The translations under genes were made by a program, and so were the position numbers. The notes below the pieces were generated by a model. It saw only the letters and a program-made list of their open reading frames with translations. It was not told the origin of the DNA and searched no databases. A stretch of 5,705 nt of DNA from Candidatus Fermentibacterota bacterium (GTDB lineage Bacteria > JAFGKV01): the NCBI GenBank assembly GCA_030620115.1, contig JAUXFG010000208.1, positions 1-5,705 of the forward strand. Reading direction: 5' to 3'. Shown here piece by piece: positions 1 to 5,705 of this stretch. Numbering within the stretch: position 1 is the first letter of the stretch; each line of letters opens with the position of its first letter.

Positions 1-60
1 CCAGATTGACAGATTATAGATTGTCAGATTTCACATTCCTCCCCCATCCCCTCCATCCCC
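1..60. repeat. CAGATT/CACATT low-complexity repeat with C-rich tract
   Basis: CAGATT or a near match recurs at 2, 10, 18 and 25. It is followed by TTCACATT and then a CCCCATCCCCTCCATCCCC tract. The same succession (CAGATT units, CCACATT, C-rich CTCC tract) appears in the same orientation at 5614-5670, so this is a dispersed family and not a chance local bias. The block overlaps the 3' end of the minus-strand elp3 gene: the stop codon (24-26) and roughly the last ten codons lie in it. It is probably non-functional expanding repeat DNA; no hairpin or terminator is evident in it. Confidence 0.75.
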
Positions 61-1712
61 TTCATCATATACCGCGTTCCATCAACATATCCCCGGGCTC
101 GATAGTACTCGCGGGTACCTATGGCTGAAATGACCGCAATGCGCCTGAACCCGGCTTCTCTGGCGATCTGTTCTGCGCGTTCAAGGAGCCGGGTGCCCAG
201 GCCAGCATGCTGCGCGCGGCCCGGGATTTTCGATCCAAGGGCAAGGGCCGGACCATAGACGTGAACTTCACGGATCATGGCAACGCCGTCAATCTCGTCA
301 AACTCTCGAGCCTCCTCAGGAATGGCCGCGTGGGGTAGTGAGAGACGCAGAAAGCCGGCCAGCAGGGCATGGCTTCGGCCCGGACGGATCCCCTTCTCAT
401 CTGCAGACAAAAAATGCTCAGTGGATACGCCTGTCTCATAGGTCAGGTCGTGGAGATGAATCGACGCCGGATCCAACTGCTGCGTGCGAACCTCCCGGCA
501 CCGGATACAAGCACATGCCTTACCCCGCGCGCTCATGAAGGCGTGAATCATCTGCCTGAGATTTGATCGGGTGCATCCTGCCGCAATATCGTGGGCGGGG
601 ATATCCCGCATGACCCGTGTAATCCGGCAGTAGGGCGGAACCATGGTCTTGCATTGTGCAATGAGATCGGTCAGCACATCGTCAGGATAGGGAGAATGCA
701 GGCCACACTTCCAGAGGTCATAGACTTCGGTTCCGGGAAGAATGCAGCATGGATAGATCTTCAGTTCATCAGGGCGGAACGATGGATCGTCCCAGAGCAA
801 AGCGAAATCAGTAAGATCCGACTCGGGAGTGGAGCCCAGGAGGTTGGGCATCCAGTGTGCATGAATCTTGAAACCCGTCGTGCGCAGCAACCTGAATGCC
901 TGTCGCGTTTCCTCAACTCCATGGCCACGCTTGTTCCGCGCAAGAATCTCCTCATTCAGACTCTGGATGCCAATCTGAACCTTAGTGACGCCAAGCTCCC
1001 GCAGCCACGCCAACTCGCCCCAGCTCACACAATCAGGCCTGGTCTCGATTACCATGCCCACATTGCGGCATGCGGCGCGCTCATTCCTGCGTTGTGCCTC
1101 TTCCAGCGTCTCTGACTCCGTCCCGTTCATGCCATCGAGACATCGCCGGATGAACCATTCCTGATACTCAGTCGGATAGCGTGACCATGTGCCGCCAAGA
1201 ACGATGAGTTCGATCTTGTCGGTTCGATGACCAATGCTCCTGAGGGCCCGTATGCGGCGTTCGGTTTGCAGAAATGGGTCGAAGTCAAGCTGTGCCGCGC
1301 GGCGAGCGCCCGGCTCGTTGGGCAGATACGATGTGGGCATAATACCAGGGAGGTCGGGGCAGAAGGCACAGGTACCTGTGCAAGGAAATGGTTTCGTCAA
1401 AACAGCCACTGGGGTCACGCCCGATACCGTTCGCGTCGGCTTGAGCTGGAGCAGTTTTTCGACGGCCGGCATGGGCTGTATTTCCCCACGGGCCAATAAC
1501 TCTCGGTAGCCTTTCAGGACCTGGGTCTTGGTAAAACGACCCTTGCCATGTCGTCGTATCACCCTATTGGTTTGGTCCGCGGTACTGTTTTCGAGTAGAG
1601 AAAGGCGCCCAAGGATCTCCAGGAGATCCGGCCTGCACTCATCCAAGTCGACCCGCTCCATGTGGGTCGCCAACCACCGTGCGTGTTGCGCGTCTTCCAC
1701 TTCAGTTGTCAT
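24..1712 (-). CDS. elp3: Elp3-type tRNA U34 carboxymethylation enzyme (radical SAM/GNAT)
   Basis: Predicted 562-residue Elp3. The family uses a radical SAM domain and acetyl-CoA to place a carboxymethyl group on C5 of wobble uridine 34 in tRNA; bacterial and archaeal Elp3 work without the other Elongator subunits. Visible parts in order: N-terminal helical tRNA-binding region (about 20-100) leading into SGVTPVAVLTKPFPC; iron-sulfur cysteines C111, C115, C118 (CX3CX2C); SYLPNEPGARRA (128-139); LGGTWSRYPTEYQEWF (172-187); IETRPD (222-227); QIGIQS and RGHGVEET (247-269); DELKIYP and RDIPAH (315-374); CACIRCREV (400-408); and a GNAT domain from about 480 with QHAGLGTRLLERAE (501-514) for acetyl-CoA and AVISAIGTREYYRARGY (526-542). 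The start ATG (1710-1712) lacks a strong Shine-Dalgarno site, so a nearby GTG (codon 5) or ATG (codon 18) is possible. Family members usually end soon after the YMxK motif; here about ten extra residues (GMEGMGEECEI) come from the edge repeat. Family call very secure. Confidence 0.97.
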   Translation of the reverse strand: MTTEVEDAQHARWLATHMERVDLDECRPDLLEILGRLSLLENSTADQTNRVIRRHGKGRFTKTQVLKGYRELLARGEIQPMPAVEKLLQLKPTRTVSGVTPVAVLTKPFPCTGTCAFCPDLPGIMPTSYLPNEPGARRAAQLDFDPFLQTERRIRALRSIGHRTDKIELIVLGGTWSRYPTEYQEWFIRRCLDGMNGTESETLEEAQRRNERAACRNVGMVIETRPDCVSWGELAWLRELGVTKVQIGIQSLNEEILARNKRGHGVEETRQAFRLLRTTGFKIHAHWMPNLLGSTPESDLTDFALLWDDPSFRPDELKIYPCCILPGTEVYDLWKCGLHSPYPDDVLTDLIAQCKTMVPPYCRITRVMRDIPAHDIAAGCTRSNLRQMIHAFMSARGKACACIRCREVRTQQLDPASIHLHDLTYETGVSTEHFLSADEKGIRPGRSHALLAGFLRLSLPHAAIPEEAREFDEIDGVAMIREVHVYGPALALGSKIPGRAQHAGLGTRLLERAEQIAREAGFRRIAVISAIGTREYYRARGYVDGTRYMMKGMEGMGEECEI

Positions 1713-1813
1713 GACTTCACTGAACCCTTATCCTAGCCCGCATTGCGAATTGCTCGATCGCGAGAAGAGAATGTGCCACTTGAAATGATCAACAGACGAG
1801 ACGACCACAGATC
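1713..1813. promoter_or_regulatory. Divergent intergenic region between elp3 and methyltransferase
   Basis: This 101-bp spacer separates the start codons of the two divergent genes and must hold, or overlap, the promoters and leaders of both. Toward the methyltransferase, TTGCGA (1743-1748) with GAGAAT (1767-1772) at 18-bp spacing is a weak sigma70-like pair. No convincing elp3 promoter or operator could be picked by eye, and neither start has a strong Shine-Dalgarno site. The call rests on gene arrangement rather than on motif strength. Confidence 0.4.
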
Positions 1814-2572
1814 ATGAGACAAGAAACCATCCATCGGCTTTTGAAACTCAATCACGAATTCTATACCACCTTCGCAACTTCATTCTCCAAGACTCGATCC
1901 CAAGGAAGTCGAGATCTCGATAAGATTACGCGCTGCATCACCAATGGAGCAAGGGTACTCGACATTGGCTGCGGCAATGGCAGAGTTGCGCATAGGTTGA
2001 TCCAGCAAGGAATAGTGGCTCATTATGTTGGCATTGACCGCTCTATGCAGTTGATCGAAATCGCCCAATCGGCCTTCCAAGATGACACCACTGCCCATCT
2101 CGTTCCTCAACCTAGGTTTCTTGTCATTGACATCACCTCTCCACACTGGCCTGACCTCTTGAGAAATCCATCAGACAAGAATCATCAGCAGTTCGACACC
2201 GTGCTTCTGCTGGCCATACTCCACCATATCCCCTCTTCTGCGCTCAGACAACGTCTTCTGAGCGAGGTGGCGGGGTTGCTCACGCCTGCAGGACGCCTTA
2301 TTCTCTCCACATGGCAATTTCTCGATCATCCCCGCATGAGAAAAAAAATCGTGGGCTGGGACAACACAGAGGTCGACATCCACGATCTCGAGCCTGGTGA
2401 CTATCTCCTCGACTGGAAGCATGAAGGCTTCGGGATTCGTTACTGCCATCTCATTGACCAGAAAGAAATCCACACGTTGGCCGCAGACACCGGTTTCTCC
2501 ATTCTCGAGACCTTCCGCGCCGGTGGCCACGAGGGCAACCTCAGCCTCTATGCAATACTCACGAAAGTATGA
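1814..2572 (+). CDS. Class I SAM methyltransferase, Trm9/ALKBH8-like
   Basis: Predicted 252-residue Rossmann-fold SAM-dependent methyltransferase. Motif I is VLDIGCGNGR (48-57), the acidic ribose-binding strand end is GIDRS (73-77), motif IV region is FDTVLLLAILHHIP (127-140), and LLTPAGRLILSTW (155-167) is the usual post-motif strand. Three features point to the Trm9/ALKBH8 branch, which methylates carboxymethyl-uridine 34 to its methyl ester (mcm5U): an N-terminal FYTTFATSFSKTR (16-28) comparable to YNEIAPHFSQTR of yeast Trm9; a GDYLLDWK segment (195-202) where Trm9 has a VFVPW segment; and RYCHLIDQKEI (209-219) followed by GFSILE, like the RYYHLYREGEL region of Trm9. The gene is divergent from elp3, whose product would be its substrate. 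No Trm112-like partner is visible. Hand-counted lines have about 50% GC, somewhat lower than lines in elp3. Methyltransferase fold is certain; the tRNA-specific role is inferred and could instead be a generic small-molecule methyltransferase. Confidence 0.9.
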   Translation: MRQETIHRLLKLNHEFYTTFATSFSKTRSQGSRDLDKITRCITNGARVLDIGCGNGRVAHRLIQQGIVAHYVGIDRSMQLIEIAQSAFQDDTTAHLVPQPRFLVIDITSPHWPDLLRNPSDKNHQQFDTVLLLAILHHIPSSALRQRLLSEVAGLLTPAGRLILSTWQFLDHPRMRKKIVGWDNTEVDIHDLEPGDYLLDWKHEGFGIRYCHLIDQKEIHTLAADTGFSILETFRAGGHEGNLSLYAILTKV

Positions 2573-2721
2573 TCGACTGGGGCCGGTATTCTTCTTGCAT
2601 AAACTCGACTTGACTCACGAAGGATGGAAGCCCCGCAAACCGTTCTGACACAGCGCGAAGGAATCAGAGGGAAAAGGGGATGTCTCAGGACAGGCCGGGA
2701 AGTGCTTCACACTCTCGGAAC

Positions 2722-2736
2722 CCTCCTCGCAATGAC
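2722..2736 (+). repeat. Solo right-end fragment of the GTCATCGCGAG hairpin element
   Basis: The 15 bases CCTCCTCGCAATGAC are identical to the right terminus of the complete element at 2810-2824. No matching left arm is seen just upstream, so this looks like a truncated or decayed copy. It lies 14 bp before the first complete copy. Confidence 0.55.
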
Positions 2737-2750
2737 TCAGGCCCGGGGGG

Positions 2751-2824
2751 GTCATCGCGAGCAACAGCGCGGCGATCTCAATGGGCGGATGAGATTGCTT
2801 CGTCGCTGGCCTCCTCGCAATGAC
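2751..2824 (+). repeat. Hairpin-forming interspersed repeat, copy 1
   Basis: The left arm (2751-2780) begins GTCATCGCGAG and ends GCGATCTCA. The right arm (2790-2824) begins TGAGATTGCTTCGTCG and ends CTCGCAATGAC. The arms are imperfectly inverted, so the element can fold into a hairpin with a nine-base loop. It resembles REP/BIME- or MITE-like dispersed repeats of the GTCATTGCGAG...GAAGCAATCTC kind seen in many genomes. Function is unknown; transcript stabilisation or passive mobility by a transposase in trans are both possible. Confidence 0.8.
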
Positions 2825-2838
2825 AGGTGGAGGAGCTG

Positions 2839-2936
2839 GTCATCGCGAGCGATAGCGCGGCGATCTCAGTTGAGAGCAGGTGAGATTGCTTCGTCGCGGA
2901 CTCTATCCTGAGCTTGTGGAAGGGCTCCTCGCAATG
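2839..2936 (+). repeat. Hairpin-forming interspersed repeat, copy 2, interrupted
   Basis: The left arm (2839-2868) matches copy 1 at 28 of 30 positions. The right arm starts TGAGATTGCTTCGTCGC at 2881 and its terminus CCTCGCAATG lies at 2927-2936. Between them is an extra stretch containing TCCTGAGCTTGTGGAAGGG (about 2906-2924), which belongs to a different common repeat type (TCCTGAGCTTGTCGAAGG). Copy 2 is therefore longer than copy 1 and looks like a composite of two families. Confidence 0.75.
2904..2926 (+). repeat. Nested CTGAGCTTGTGGAAGG repeat inside copy 2
   Basis: About 23 bp absent from the corresponding place in copy 1. The core CCTGAGCTTGTGGAAGGG differs by one base from the CCTGAGCTTGTCGAAGGG motif I know as a frequent dispersed bacterial repeat. 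It interrupts the right arm of the hairpin element, which makes the arm asymmetric. The exact boundaries are uncertain because the flanking arm sequences are themselves variable. Confidence 0.5.
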
Positions 2937-3028
2937 GATAGCCCGGATTTCTCACCTGGTTTCGTCGCGAGAGGGTCGAGATGATTGTGGCCGCGAGGCT
3001 TGCGACCGAGGACCCCGCAGGCGTATTC

Positions 3029-3052
3029 GCTGTCCGCCAGCTGGCGGACAGC
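3029..3052. repeat. Perfect 24-bp palindrome
   Basis: Half-site GCTGTCCGCCAG is followed directly by its exact reverse complement CTGGCGGACAGC, with no spacer. The symmetry breaks at the next base on each side. Such GC-rich palindromes occur as dispersed repeats in some candidate-phylum genomes. No T run follows, so it does not look like a standard terminator. An operator for a dimeric regulator is possible but unsupported. Confidence 0.8.
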
Positions 3053-3102
3053 AGACACTAGCATTGATCGTAAAACGAGAGAATGAAACGTCCCGGAAAA
3101 AG

Positions 3103-3128
3103 TCCACTAAATCCATGGATTTAGTGGA
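3103..3128. repeat. Perfect 26-bp palindrome upstream of barrel gene
   Basis: Half-site TCCACTAAATCCA is followed directly by its exact reverse complement TGGATTTAGTGGA. The centre is CCATGG. It ends 18 bp before the first candidate start codon of the outer-membrane protein gene, so it lies in the leader or promoter of that gene. It could be a dispersed palindromic repeat, an operator, or a cruciform or RNA hairpin. Sequence alone does not decide between these. Confidence 0.8.
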
Positions 3129-3134
3129 GATTAT

Positions 3135-3139
3135 GGAAG
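3135..3139 (+). promoter_or_regulatory. Ribosome binding site for the upstream (ATG) start of the barrel gene
   Basis: GGAAG stands seven bases before the ATG at 3147. A competing site, GGGGA at 3229-3233, stands nine bases before an in-frame GTG at 3243. Both are acceptable, so spacing does not settle which start is used. Confidence 0.4.
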
Positions 3140-3146
3140 AACCGAA

Positions 3147-4430
3147 ATGCTGGAATATATACTGAGGAATCGGCTACTACGTGTCATTCTGAGGAAGCAG
3201 TGCGACCGAAGAATCTGGGCGGGGTCCTGGGGAAAGAGAACAGTGCCGCTGATCCTCGTTCTCCTGATGACCTCGGCAGTAGATTCGAGCGATGTACCAT
3301 GGAATCCTGCCCGTACGGTGTATGGCCGGCCCCCCTGGGCCGTGAACCCCGCGCTTCTGGCGGTGAACTACGGCGAAGCATGGGGCTATGAGCTCATCGG
3401 GATCACTACTTCCATGGCCAACAATTCCATTGATCTCGACCTCTACACAAAGTATAACGGCACCTTCTTGGATCATGAGGATAAGCAGACGATCCTTGCT
3501 GAAATCGCGGACGAGTTGCGAGGCCGGGCGGTGACCCGTGTGGGGGCAATGAGTCTGAGAGCGGGAAAGCTCGGCTATATCATGAGATCCTATGTGGGGT
3601 CCGATGTTGGTTTGGACAAGGATTTGCTCGAAATCGCCTTCTTTGGCAATACACTCGGCGAGCAATACCATCTCCTCAACTCTGGCCACCTATTGGCCAT
3701 GAGCTCCTTCGGCTTCAGCTATGGCCACCCCTTGGGCTCGATCGGAGCATGGAAGTTCGCTGCCGGCGGAGGCCTTGAGTTTCTCTTCCCGTGGAAGGCA
3801 GCCGCCATTACGGAGAGCCGAGGCGAACTCATCACGGAGGACACCGGCGTCACGGGGTGGGGCGCCACCGCGGTGCGATACTCCCAGGGCACGGGCAAGG
3901 GCATCGCCTTTGATCTGGGCTTCTGGGCGGCATTCGACCAGTTGGAAATACGGCTTGCGGTGAGCACTATTGGGCCTTCGATTATTTGGCCCGAGTCAAC
4001 AGAGGAGTATTACCATTTCGAGATGGATGGGTGGACCCTTGAAAAAGGCGACGATGCCTTTGCCAAGGCGGATTCTACCAGGAACTTCTCCAGTTGGTCC
4101 ACGCCGCTTCCAACCGAGCTGCGATCCCTCGTTGCTGTCCACACCGCATGGGGACAGATACACTTGGCATGGATTCAAGGCCTTCGCACCCTAGCCGGAG
4201 TATCCACTGAACCACGTTTCCTTTTGGGCACCGAATGGGAACCACTCTCCTGGCTCAGGCCGCGATTCGGGATCAGCATCGGCGGCCTCGAGGATCTCAG
4301 CCTCTCCATCGGTTCGAGACTGAACCTTTGGGTTCTTCACACCGATCTCTCCGTCTTCGGTTTTCGCCTTCCAGCAGGCAGAAGCAAAGCCTTTGGGCTC
4401 AGCCTCTCCATCGGCCTCGGCGACATCTAA
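3147..4430 (+). CDS. Secreted, probably outer-membrane beta-barrel protein (DUF5723-like)
   Basis: Predicted 427-residue exported protein of unknown function. A hydrophobic signal segment VPLILVLLMTSAV (33-45) follows Lys30-Arg31. The mature part starts with WNPARTVYGRPPWAVNPALLA and continues with alternating hydrophobic/polar, Gly- and aromatic-rich stretches to the last residue (for example FGISIGG, LSLSIGSRLNLWV, AFGLSLSIGLGDI), as expected for amphipathic beta strands. The NPALLA motif, then NNSIDLDLYTKYNG and a DKQTILAEI helix (112-120), recall DUF5723-type barrels found in Bacteroidota and related phyla; this is recognition by eye. ATG 3147 is used as start because it is the first ATG, has GGAAG at good spacing and keeps the basic n-region. 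GTG 3243 (residue 33) is a real alternative, because residues 12-24 are encoded by a dispersed repeat and the signal segment starts right after. No operon partner is evident. Confidence 0.85.
   Translation: MLEYILRNRLLRVILRKQCDRRIWAGSWGKRTVPLILVLLMTSAVDSSDVPWNPARTVYGRPPWAVNPALLAVNYGEAWGYELIGITTSMANNSIDLDLYTKYNGTFLDHEDKQTILAEIADELRGRAVTRVGAMSLRAGKLGYIMRSYVGSDVGLDKDLLEIAFFGNTLGEQYHLLNSGHLLAMSSFGFSYGHPLGSIGAWKFAAGGGLEFLFPWKAAAITESRGELITEDTGVTGWGATAVRYSQGTGKGIAFDLGFWAAFDQLEIRLAVSTIGPSIIWPESTEEYYHFEMDGWTLEKGDDAFAKADSTRNFSSWSTPLPTELRSLVAVHTAWGQIHLAWIQGLRTLAGVSTEPRFLLGTEWEPLSWLRPRFGISIGGLEDLSLSIGSRLNLWVLHTDLSVFGFRLPAGRSKAFGLSLSIGLGDI
3182..3216 (+). repeat. TGTCATTCTGAG...GAAGAATCT repeat, copy A
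   Basis: 35 bp with the conserved ends TGTCATTCTGAG and GAAGAATCT and a different middle (GAAGCAGTGCGACC). The same ends bound copies at 4559-4592 (minus) and 4623-4657 (plus). It lies within the first codons of the barrel gene if translation starts at 3147, or in its 5' leader if translation starts at 3243. Confidence 0.8.
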
Positions 4431-4508
4431 GCCCACGCCATCCGCACGCCCCTGGCCATCAGCTATCACTTATCAGCTCCTTCTTCCCTCCCTATCCAGA
4501 TTCTTCCT

Positions 4509-4536
4509 CCGTCATCTGAACGCTGAACACTGAATA
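4509..4536 (+). repeat. CCGTCATCTGAACGCTGAACACTGAA block 1
   Basis: CCGTCATCT is followed by GAACGCTGAACACTGAATAC, an eight-base-type tandem of CTGAACRC. The block at 4674-4710 repeats the same lead and the same CTGAAC units in a different order. It is preceded at 4498-4506 by AGATTCTTC, the end motif of the TGTCATTCTGAG family. Confidence 0.65.
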
Positions 4537-4558
4537 CTTGCTCCTCCCAGCCCCGCCC

Positions 4559-4592
4559 AGATTCTTCAGTCGCCCGCTCCCTCAGAATGACA
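4559..4592 (-). repeat. TGTCATTCTGAG...GAAGAATCT repeat, copy C (inverted)
   Basis: On the minus strand this reads TGTCATTCTGAG, then a variable middle GGAGCGGGCGACT, then GAAGAATCT (34 bp). It lies 30 bp from copy B in the opposite orientation, so the two could pair into a long stem through their conserved ends. Confidence 0.8.
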
Positions 4593-4622
4593 CGGCTCTT
4601 CACATCCAATGCCAACCACCCT

Positions 4623-4657
4623 TGTCATTCTGAGCGACCCCAAGGAGCGAAGAATCT
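4623..4657 (+). repeat. TGTCATTCTGAG...GAAGAATCT repeat, copy B
   Basis: 35 bp with the same conserved ends as copies A and C and its own middle, CGACCCCAAGGAGC. The constant ends and variable centre suggest a family that diverges or recombines internally. I recognise the TGTCATTCTGAGCG...GAAGAATCT motif as a dispersed repeat reported widely in bacterial drafts. Confidence 0.8.
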
Positions 4658-4673
4658 TTCCTACACCCTGTTT

Positions 4674-4710
4674 CCGTCATCTAAACACTGAACGCTGAAC
4701 CCTGAACCCT
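4674..4710 (+). repeat. CCGTCATCTAAACACTGAACGCTGAACCCTGAACCCT block 2
   Basis: Starts with the same CCGTCATCT lead as block 1, followed by AACACTGAACGCTGAACC and CTGAACCCT. Units of CTGAAC plus a two-base variable part recur four times. Finding the lead sequence together with the tandem units twice in about 200 bp shows a modular repeat and not simple drift. Confidence 0.65.
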
Positions 4711-4821
4711 CTCCTCCTACCCCTGGACATGCTTCTCTGCCCCGATAGCTTGTATTGAGCAAAATAGAAAAACACTGGCCAAAGAACACAGCGCTCAACC
4801 AGAATAGAACCCGAGGTAATC

Positions 4822-5705
4822 ATGAGGATTGTTCACGTAGTCGGGGCACGGCCCAACTTCATGAAGATGGCGCCGGTCATGGCGGCGTTGTCAGAGAAAG
4901 ACGGCGTTTCCCAGAAGCTGGTGCATACGGGACAGCACTACGACGCCAACATGTCCGAGCTCTTCTTCGATGAGCTGGAACTTCCCGAGCCGGATCTCAA
5001 TCTCCAGGTGGGTTCCGGCGCCCACGGCGCGCAGACCGCCCAGATCATGATCCGTTTCGAGGAAATCATGCTGGCTGATCGCCCCGATCTCGTACTCGTC
5101 TACGGCGACGTCAATTCCACGGTGGCCGCCGCACTGGTGTGTGCGAAACTTCTCATCCCCGTGGGTCACGTAGAGGCCGGCTTGCGTTCCCTTGATCGAA
5201 CCATGCCGGAGGAAATCAACCGGCTCCTCACCGATCAGATTGCGGACTTCCTTTTTACACCATCTGCTGATGCTGACAGGAACCTCCTTCAGGAAGGTAT
5301 TTCGCGCGATCGGATCCATTTGGTCGGCAATGCCATGATCGACACGTTGGTGCGCCTCCTACCCCGGGCCATGGAGCGTTGGGAGCATGAGACCTTCGAA
5401 CCCTGGCACAATCGGCCCTATGTCCTGGTGACTCTCCACCGCCCATCAAGCGTGGACGAGCCCGACATGTTGGGCAAGCTCATGTCTGCGCTTTGTGAGA
5501 TCAGCCAAGAGATCCCTGTGATCTTCCCCGTCCACCCCCGCACCCGACAACGTCTCTCCGACCAATCCCGCATTCCCGCAATCCCGCAATCCCGCAATTC
5601 CTCCCCCTTCCCCCAGATTACAGATTCCACATTGTCAGATTCCACATTGTCCCCCCTCCATTCCCTCAATCCCTCCTCACATTCGACGTTGGATGTTGGA
5701 TGTTC
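4822..5705 (+). CDS. wecB: UDP-N-acetylglucosamine 2-epimerase (non-hydrolysing), partial at window end, with repeat insert
   Basis: WecB interconverts UDP-GlcNAc and UDP-ManNAc in the cytoplasm, feeding ManNAc-containing surface polysaccharide. ATG 4822 has GAGG at 4813-4816. Residues 1-246 match the family closely: VVGARPNFMKMAPV (6-19) with Arg10 and Lys15; TGQHYD (36-41); LVYGDVNST (92-100) with Asp96; VGHVEAGLRS (114-123) with Glu118; MPEEINR (128-134) with Glu131; VGNAMIDTL (168-176); LVTLHR (202-207) with His206; and FPVHPRTRQRL (235-245). In the family this last motif is followed by a strand and LGYLDFL, then a TDSGGIQEE motif. Here residues from about 248 to 294 are instead a Ser/Pro/Thr-rich stretch encoded by tandem repeats, including DSTLS twice, with no stop before the window edge. 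So the gene carries an in-frame insert, or is broken just beyond the window. Family call secure; intactness unknown. Confidence 0.93.
   Translation, partial: MRIVHVVGARPNFMKMAPVMAALSEKDGVSQKLVHTGQHYDANMSELFFDELELPEPDLNLQVGSGAHGAQTAQIMIRFEEIMLADRPDLVLVYGDVNSTVAAALVCAKLLIPVGHVEAGLRSLDRTMPEEINRLLTDQIADFLFTPSADADRNLLQEGISRDRIHLVGNAMIDTLVRLLPRAMERWEHETFEPWHNRPYVLVTLHRPSSVDEPDMLGKLMSALCEISQEIPVIFPVHPRTRQRLSDQSRIPAIPQSRNSSPFPQITDSTLSDSTLSPLHSLNPSSHSTLDVGC
5564..5595 (+). repeat. Tandem AATCCCGC octamer, four units
   Basis: Units begin at 5564, 5572, 5580 and 5588; the second carries one change (ATTCCCGC), and a partial fifth (AATTCC) follows. The array lies inside the wecB reading frame, directly after the codons for HPRTRQRLSDQ. 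Because eight is not a multiple of three, each unit is read in a different phase, yet no stop arises. Confidence 0.85.
5611..5705 (+). repeat. CAGATT/CACATT repeat plus C-rich tract and GTTGGAT units, inside wecB
   Basis: Two exact tandem copies of the 15-mer CAGATTCCACATTGT (5621-5635 and 5636-5650) encode DSTLS twice in the wecB frame. A C-rich tract (CCCCCCTCCATTCCCTCAATCC) and two GTTGGAT heptamers (5688-5694 and 5695-5701) follow, and the repeat runs past the window edge. The first half is clearly related to the block at 1-60, in the same orientation. Confidence 0.8.

Follow-up and report, generated by a model that had tools for sequence, protein, structure and literature searches.

Introduction

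Where MnmE and MnmG modify the wobble uridine (U34) of bacterial tRNA, a methyltransferase finishes the product in some species. In eukaryotes the corresponding modification, 5-methoxycarbonylmethyluridine (mcm5U), depends on Elp3, within Elongator, and on the methyltransferase Trm9 or ALKBH8, and mcm5U has been regarded as a eukaryotic signature (PMC2584109). An archaeal pathway of Elp3 and Trm9 was predicted earlier, with the genes clustered in Sulfolobus (PMC2584109), and Haloferax is cited as an organism in which mcm5U34 has been documented (PMC7663514). A 2017 review states that no Trm9-like genes were detected in bacteria (PMC5372719), and the derivatives of 5-carboxymethyluridine (cm5U) in bacterial species with Elp3 have been called unknown for want of direct evidence (PMC7663514). 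Here we analyze a 5,705-nucleotide stretch of DNA (the window; forward strand of contig JAUXFG010000208.1, positions 1 to 5,705, assembly GCA_030620115.1) from a Candidatus Fermentibacterota bacterium, in which an elp3 gene is divergently paired with a gene for a Trm9-like methyltransferase. It is probable, in our assessment, that this pair constitutes a two-gene bacterial wobble-uridine pathway to mcm5U34 that stands in for MnmE/MnmG, as a preliminary description of the sequence had suggested. Elp3 would add a carboxymethyl group to C5 of U34 by radical S-adenosylmethionine (SAM) chemistry using acetyl-CoA, yielding cm5U, and the Trm9-like methyltransferase would methylate the carboxylate of cm5U34 with SAM to give mcm5U34. 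We infer from the known roles of the two families that the enzymes would share a target nucleotide and would yield a methyl ester.

Results

Conservation of the divergent pair

The two genes start from ATG codons at 1712 (minus strand) and 1814 (plus strand), and the arrangement is the divergent one that had been described.

24 to 1712, minus strand: elp3, complete, 562 amino acids, ATG at 1712; radical SAM/GNAT tRNA uridine-34 carboxymethyl enzyme
1713 to 1813, no strand assigned: 101-bp divergent intergenic region separating the start codons, presumably a promoter region for both genes
1814 to 2572, plus strand: Trm9-like class I SAM methyltransferase, here called subfamily A, 252 amino acids, ATG at 1814; predicted tRNA (cm5U34) carboxyl methyltransferase

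The phylum was sampled with three genomes, that of the window (G000), G001 and G002, and both proteins were found in all three. The divergent pair is seen directly in G001. The methyltransferase contig of G002 breaks inside the N-terminus of elp3; its first bases, read on the reverse strand, start with MTQHNDLQERWAQWTARHED, in agreement with the N-terminus of the G001 Elp3, MTHHENLRERWAEWTARHED. Given the G001 pair and this match at the contig end, the divergent order is conserved in 3/3 genomes of the phylum, and we regard the pairing as real because it recurs in all of them. Scanning GTDB contigs with the single methyltransferase sequence gave no match; a three-row profile found subfamily A loci there in 11 genomes, including G001 and G002.

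A larger sample comprised 301 Chloroflexota genomes; the methyltransferase search scored the top nine candidates in each. The subfamily A profile returned 28 full-length members at 211-352 bits, with the next matches at 66 bits. Elp3 was found in 52 of the 301 genomes, that is, in all 28 that carry subfamily A versus 24 of the 273 others (Fisher 2e-25, genomes being treated as independent, though related). Twenty-four of the 28 pairs lie on one contig in divergent order, 0.2-2.2 kb apart by profile coordinates. Within subfamily A, Elp3 and methyltransferase distances are correlated (Mantel r=0.92, 0/10000 permutations), a comparison that includes pairs no longer adjacent, and the Elp3 tree splits into the same two clades as the methyltransferases, subfamily A and a second one, subfamily B, described below. 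The A loci lie in unrelated contexts and share only Elp3 and the methyltransferase. The neighborhood proposed for homologues across genomes is thereby borne out as a conserved unit with co-phylogeny, and the linkage of Elp3 and the methyltransferase is strong. A conserved third gene was considered for the A loci and rejected: only in some lineages are the two genes separated by a PAPS-reductase-family gene (L097:3199-4005, L098:3128-3880) or an M50-protease-like gene (L094:3191-4342, L095:3583-4743).

The Elp3 gene

The preliminary description called the Elp3 complete, which agrees with its score against NCBIfam TIGR01211 (499.6 bits, cut-off 350; model positions 38-520 of 522 covered) and with its intact catalytic residues. 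The Pfam domains are radical-SAM, Radical_SAM_C and GNAT; the C-terminal GNAT acetyl-CoA domain (PF00583) is barely above cut-off, and the alignment to PDB structures spans it. The closest PDB relatives are the Elp3 proteins of Dehalococcoides and Methanocaldococcus (E ~1e-113). In Min Elp3, E207, K302 and Y304 are required for cm5U formation, E207 being an essential residue (PMC13315578). The equivalents of these residues and the cluster cysteines are located as follows.

1359 to 1382, minus strand: [4Fe-4S] cysteines C111, C115 and C118, invariant in 53/53 aligned Elp3 rows
1044 to 1046, minus strand: E223, equivalent of Min Elp3 E207, mapped via the PDB alignment, invariant in 53/53
753 to 761, minus strand: K318-I-Y320, equivalents of Min K302 and Y304, invariant in 53/53

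The spacing of E223, K318 and Y320 (95 and 2 residues) equals that published for Min Elp3. About 110 N-terminal residues stand ahead of the cluster cysteines in the window Elp3, and in archaeal Elp3 an N-terminal extension binds tRNA (PMC6367351). The residues preceding these cysteines number mostly ~100-125 in Elp3 paired with subfamily A and mostly 22 in Elp3 paired with subfamily B.

The methyltransferase of the window

Pfam and NCBIfam returned generic or sub-cut-off matches only. The top PDB match, with the single sequence and with a 12-row profile, is 5cm2, the Yarrowia Trm9 of a Trm9-Trm112 complex. Alone among the top profile matches, 5cm2 aligned all the way from TR near the N-terminus to the RYYHL hairpin near the C-terminus, most others ending at about position 157. 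This full-length match, first among solved structures, is what the Trm9-like identity proposed at the outset would lead one to expect. The same proposal drew on two motifs outside the generic SAM motifs, FSKTR and RYCHLIDQKEI (residues 209-219, nt 2438-2470), and these match FSQTR and RYYHLYREGE of the yeast and Yarrowia Trm9 by position. The ScTrm9 sequence used for numbering is not a database record; it matches 5cm2 at E 2.5e-71 and fits at the five residue letters discussed here, and its low-complexity insert was excluded from the alignment and trees. ScTrm9 residues R29, H115, R241, Y243 and N271 affect tRNA affinity and turnover, with the effect of R29A shown, and a two-stranded lid over the active site has been described for Trm9 (PMC5372719).

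1883 to 1897, plus strand: FSKTR, residues 24-28; R28 corresponds to ScTrm9 R29, a tRNA substrate residue
2222 to 2227, plus strand: H137-H138; H137 corresponds to ScTrm9 H115
2399 to 2449, plus strand: lid hairpin D196-x-L-L-x-W201 ... R209-Y210-C211-H212; R209 corresponds to ScTrm9 R241, with C211 in place of ScTrm9 Y243

Residues were counted in subfamilies A and B and in the 24 best-scoring generic methyltransferases. The R29 position holds arginine in 39/39 A, 23/23 B and 5/24 generic sequences, the R241 position in 39/39, 23/23 and 2/24, and the H115 position holds histidine in 36/39, 23/23 and 3/24. Because of the positional match to Trm9 and these arginines, the two motifs are not generic. 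The lid motif W ... RY ... E occurs in 39/39 A, 22/23 B, 2/2 Trm9 and 1/24 generic sequences. An AlphaFold2 (AF2) model of the subfamily A methyltransferase (predicted local distance difference test, pLDDT, 92) places two strands at the lid, 196-201 and 207-212, and the subfamily B model (pLDDT 91) has two strands there as well. On its sequence, subfamily A is Trm9-like and may be a Trm9 orthologue.

Subfamily B

Because 24 of the Elp3-bearing Chloroflexota genomes are without subfamily A, their Elp3 loci were read. In 23 of them another methyltransferase, subfamily B, stands divergently beside Elp3; it was collected solely through its adjacency to Elp3 in these loci. Its top PDB match is also Trm9 (5cm2, E 1e-20), and subfamily B is a Trm9 homologue. 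Three B loci (L061, L062, L064) are Dehalococcoides-like, and one Elp3 there matches the crystallized Dehalococcoides mccartyi Elp3 at 976 bits; the best-studied bacterial Elp3 therefore has a Trm9-like neighbor in close relatives, of which we found no mention in the literature searched. QueH, the epoxyqueuosine reductase of the wobble G34 pathway, is encoded in the vicinity of the two genes at 14 of the 23 B loci (e.g., L061:1753-2298). We count this recurrence of another wobble-modification gene in favor of the proposed pathway.

Phylogeny and fold comparison

A profile comparison starting from Trm9 recovers B at 1e-27 and A at 1e-24, with the next generic group at 2e-12. B and Trm9 group together in an 88-row tree (99/85), and the test of a joint clade of A, B and Trm9 rejects it (p 0.012). 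After removal of four long-branch rows, the B and Trm9 clade has support of 97/91, the joint clade is not rejected (p 0.105) and a clade of A and B alone is rejected (p 0.016). The tree sampling is biased against A since the generic rows were mostly picked as A's best matches. The trees place B, but not firmly A, with Trm9. The class I fold matches >1000 chains. By Foldseek, Trm9 ranks fourth for the A model and second for the B model; it is absent from the best 50 VIA-align matches in the structure comparison. The class I fold is too common for structure comparison to decide family membership.

Trm112

The system had been described as apparently Trm112-free. We have dropped this claim as unsupported: three open reading frames (ORFs) with a Trm112 domain above cut-off are present in the window genome. 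In two of them (L008, L010) the domain precedes another methyltransferase on its N-terminal side; the third, L009, counted from M at nt 1495, is a 91-amino-acid Trm112-like domain, possibly a separate gene or part of a fusion. At that locus (G000:C29, L009:820-1770) the domain is without the usual CxxC and follows an upstream ORF in the same reading frame. Trm112 matches at E<=0.001 occur in 22 of the 28 subfamily A genomes, but several genomes with the pair, among them the Dehalococcoides-like G020 and G033, gave none at this threshold.

MnmE and MnmG in pair-bearing genomes

In the window genome (98% complete) neither MnmG (TIGR00136, PF13932) nor MnmE (TIGR00450) was found above cut-off; MnmE candidates with a GTPase domain only, below cut-off, were rejected. 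The MnmG C-terminal domain PF13932 was not found in any of the three phylum genomes, with a control finding it in nine bacteria, nor in any of the 11 genomes behind the GTDB subfamily A loci, one of which (L030/G013, 'Deltaproteobacteria') is a single 3.67-Mb chromosome contig. MnmG occurs in 121 of the 301 Chloroflexota genomes, in 0/52 with Elp3 versus 121/249 without it (Fisher 1e-13, genomes again treated as independent, though related). Both MnmG (PF13932) and Elp3 were missing in 128/301 Chloroflexota genomes, some of which may be incomplete. Since neither the window genome and its phylum nor any sampled Elp3-bearing Chloroflexota genome has MnmG, an alternative to MnmE/MnmG, as originally proposed for the pair, is the natural reading.

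Other features of the window

At 2722-2954 and 4578-4637 there are intergenic repeats, CCTCCTCGCAATGAC / GGTCATCGCGAGC...GCGGCGATCTCA with a spacing of 86-88, and an inverted repeat, TCAGAATGACA / TGTCATTCTGA, which resemble dispersed palindromic repeats. An ORF for a UDP-GlcNAc 2-epimerase (WecB) at 4822-5703 shows similarity to its family only up to residue ~248; beyond that it continues into CCCGCAAT / CAGATTCCACATTGT repeats at the end of the contig, and it appears to be disrupted or misassembled.

Discussion

Several observations weigh against reading the pair as a two-gene pathway to mcm5U34. Elp3 was not seen in the examined flank of four of the 11 GTDB A loci (L020, L025, L026, L027), and four of the 28 Chloroflexota A pairs are not adjacent, three being on different contigs and one 641 kb apart. 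The co-occurrence counts are uncorrected for relatedness. In G205, whose Elp3 belongs to the A clade, neither an A nor a B methyltransferase was found. The Y243 position holds tyrosine in 0/39 A (C, V or A instead), 22/23 B and 1/24 generic sequences, and the N271 position holds asparagine in 8/39 A, 23/23 B and 0/24 generic sequences, which leaves three of the five ScTrm9 substrate residues kept in subfamily A and all five in subfamily B. The window methyltransferase itself keeps R28, H137 and R209, with C211 and S244 replacing Y243 and N271. In addition, tree support for grouping A with Trm9 is not firm, and the fold is common to many small-molecule methyltransferases.

We entertain, tentatively and with considerable doubt, the idea that A and B are two methyltransferase lineages beside two Elp3 clades, and that A, whose recruitment owes nothing to Trm9, works in the absence of Trm112 as the bacteria's own finishing step for an Elp3-dependent wobble base, possibly a nucleoside undescribed in bacteria. 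Another explanation, which we judge unlikely, holds that the pair acts on the same wobble uridine and that A, recruited independently of Trm9, makes a product other than the mcm5U ester, for example another methylated derivative of cm5U or 5-carbamoylmethyluridine (ncm5U). It draws on the absence of Y243 and usual absence of N271 in A, on the tree position of A and on the profile comparison starting from A, in which generic groups almost equal B and outscore Trm9; yet A matches Trm9 over its full length, lid included, keeps the R29, H115 and R241 positions and occupies the same divergent place as B, where the Trm9 residue set is complete.

It is quite improbable that Elp3 makes cm5U beside a small-molecule or quinone methyltransferase that is simply a stable neighbor. 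Weak matches to UbiG and other small-molecule models, together with the many such enzymes in the fold ranking, lend this explanation some weight. However, UbiG (TIGR01983) gives 45.8 bits, below its curated equivalog cut-off of 102.95, so the ubiquinone assignment that the preliminary description had set against its own proposal falls short, and the best-scoring NCBIfam model, CpaM, reaches 47.7 bits against a cut-off of 180. The recurrence of the pair in unrelated contexts, the A loci sharing nothing else, the 28/28 co-occurrence and the co-phylogeny, which holds even with the genes on different contigs, also argue against such a neighbor. That MnmG is missing merely from incomplete assemblies, Elp3 and the methyltransferase being extras unrelated to U34 chemistry, is hardly credible: most genomes are metagenome-assembled (G002 is 82% complete) and many Chloroflexota have neither MnmG nor Elp3, but the split of MnmG by Elp3 presence, its absence from single near-complete contigs too (G013, G061, G189) and the completeness of the window genome all speak against it.

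If the two-gene pathway to mcm5U34 is correct, several bacterial phyla would produce mcm5U with a pair of proteins that replaces MnmE/MnmG. The missing second enzyme would then stand beside the best-studied bacterial Elp3, offering a minimal system in which to reconstitute Elp3 and Trm9 chemistry together.

Comparison with known systems

MnmE/MnmG, with MnmC or MnmL/MnmM, modifies C5 of the same wobble uridine, to 5-(carboxy)methylaminomethyluridine ((c)mnm5U34), by unrelated enzymes that are absent from the pair genomes. The eukaryotic system, Elongator with Trm9-Trm112 or ALKBH8-TRMT112, which makes mcm5(s2)U34 (s2, 2-thio), shares both enzyme families with the window, including the intact Elp3 catalytic residues and, in the methyltransferase, the N-terminal arginine, the HH and the W...RY lid. 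It differs in that the bacterial genes are two, divergently paired, with Elp1, Elp2 and Elp4-6 not expected in bacteria, and in that subfamily A is without Y243 and mostly without N271. The D. mccartyi Elp3 (PDB 5l7j; PMC7663514, PMC6367351) is likewise bacterial and has, in its close relatives, a Trm9-like subfamily B methyltransferase divergently beside it, whereas the window Elp3 belongs to the other clade, has ~110 rather than the 22 residues of Dehalococcoidia before the cysteines and is paired with A. Archaeal Elp3 and Trm9 (Haloferax volcanii, Sulfolobus solfataricus; PMC2584109, PMC5372719) resemble the window pair in being prokaryotic, with Elp3 acting without Elongator, a Trm9 homologue, a proposed mcm5U-type product and, in Sulfolobus, gene clustering; the bacterial pairs, unlike these, are divergent and lie in genomes without MnmG.

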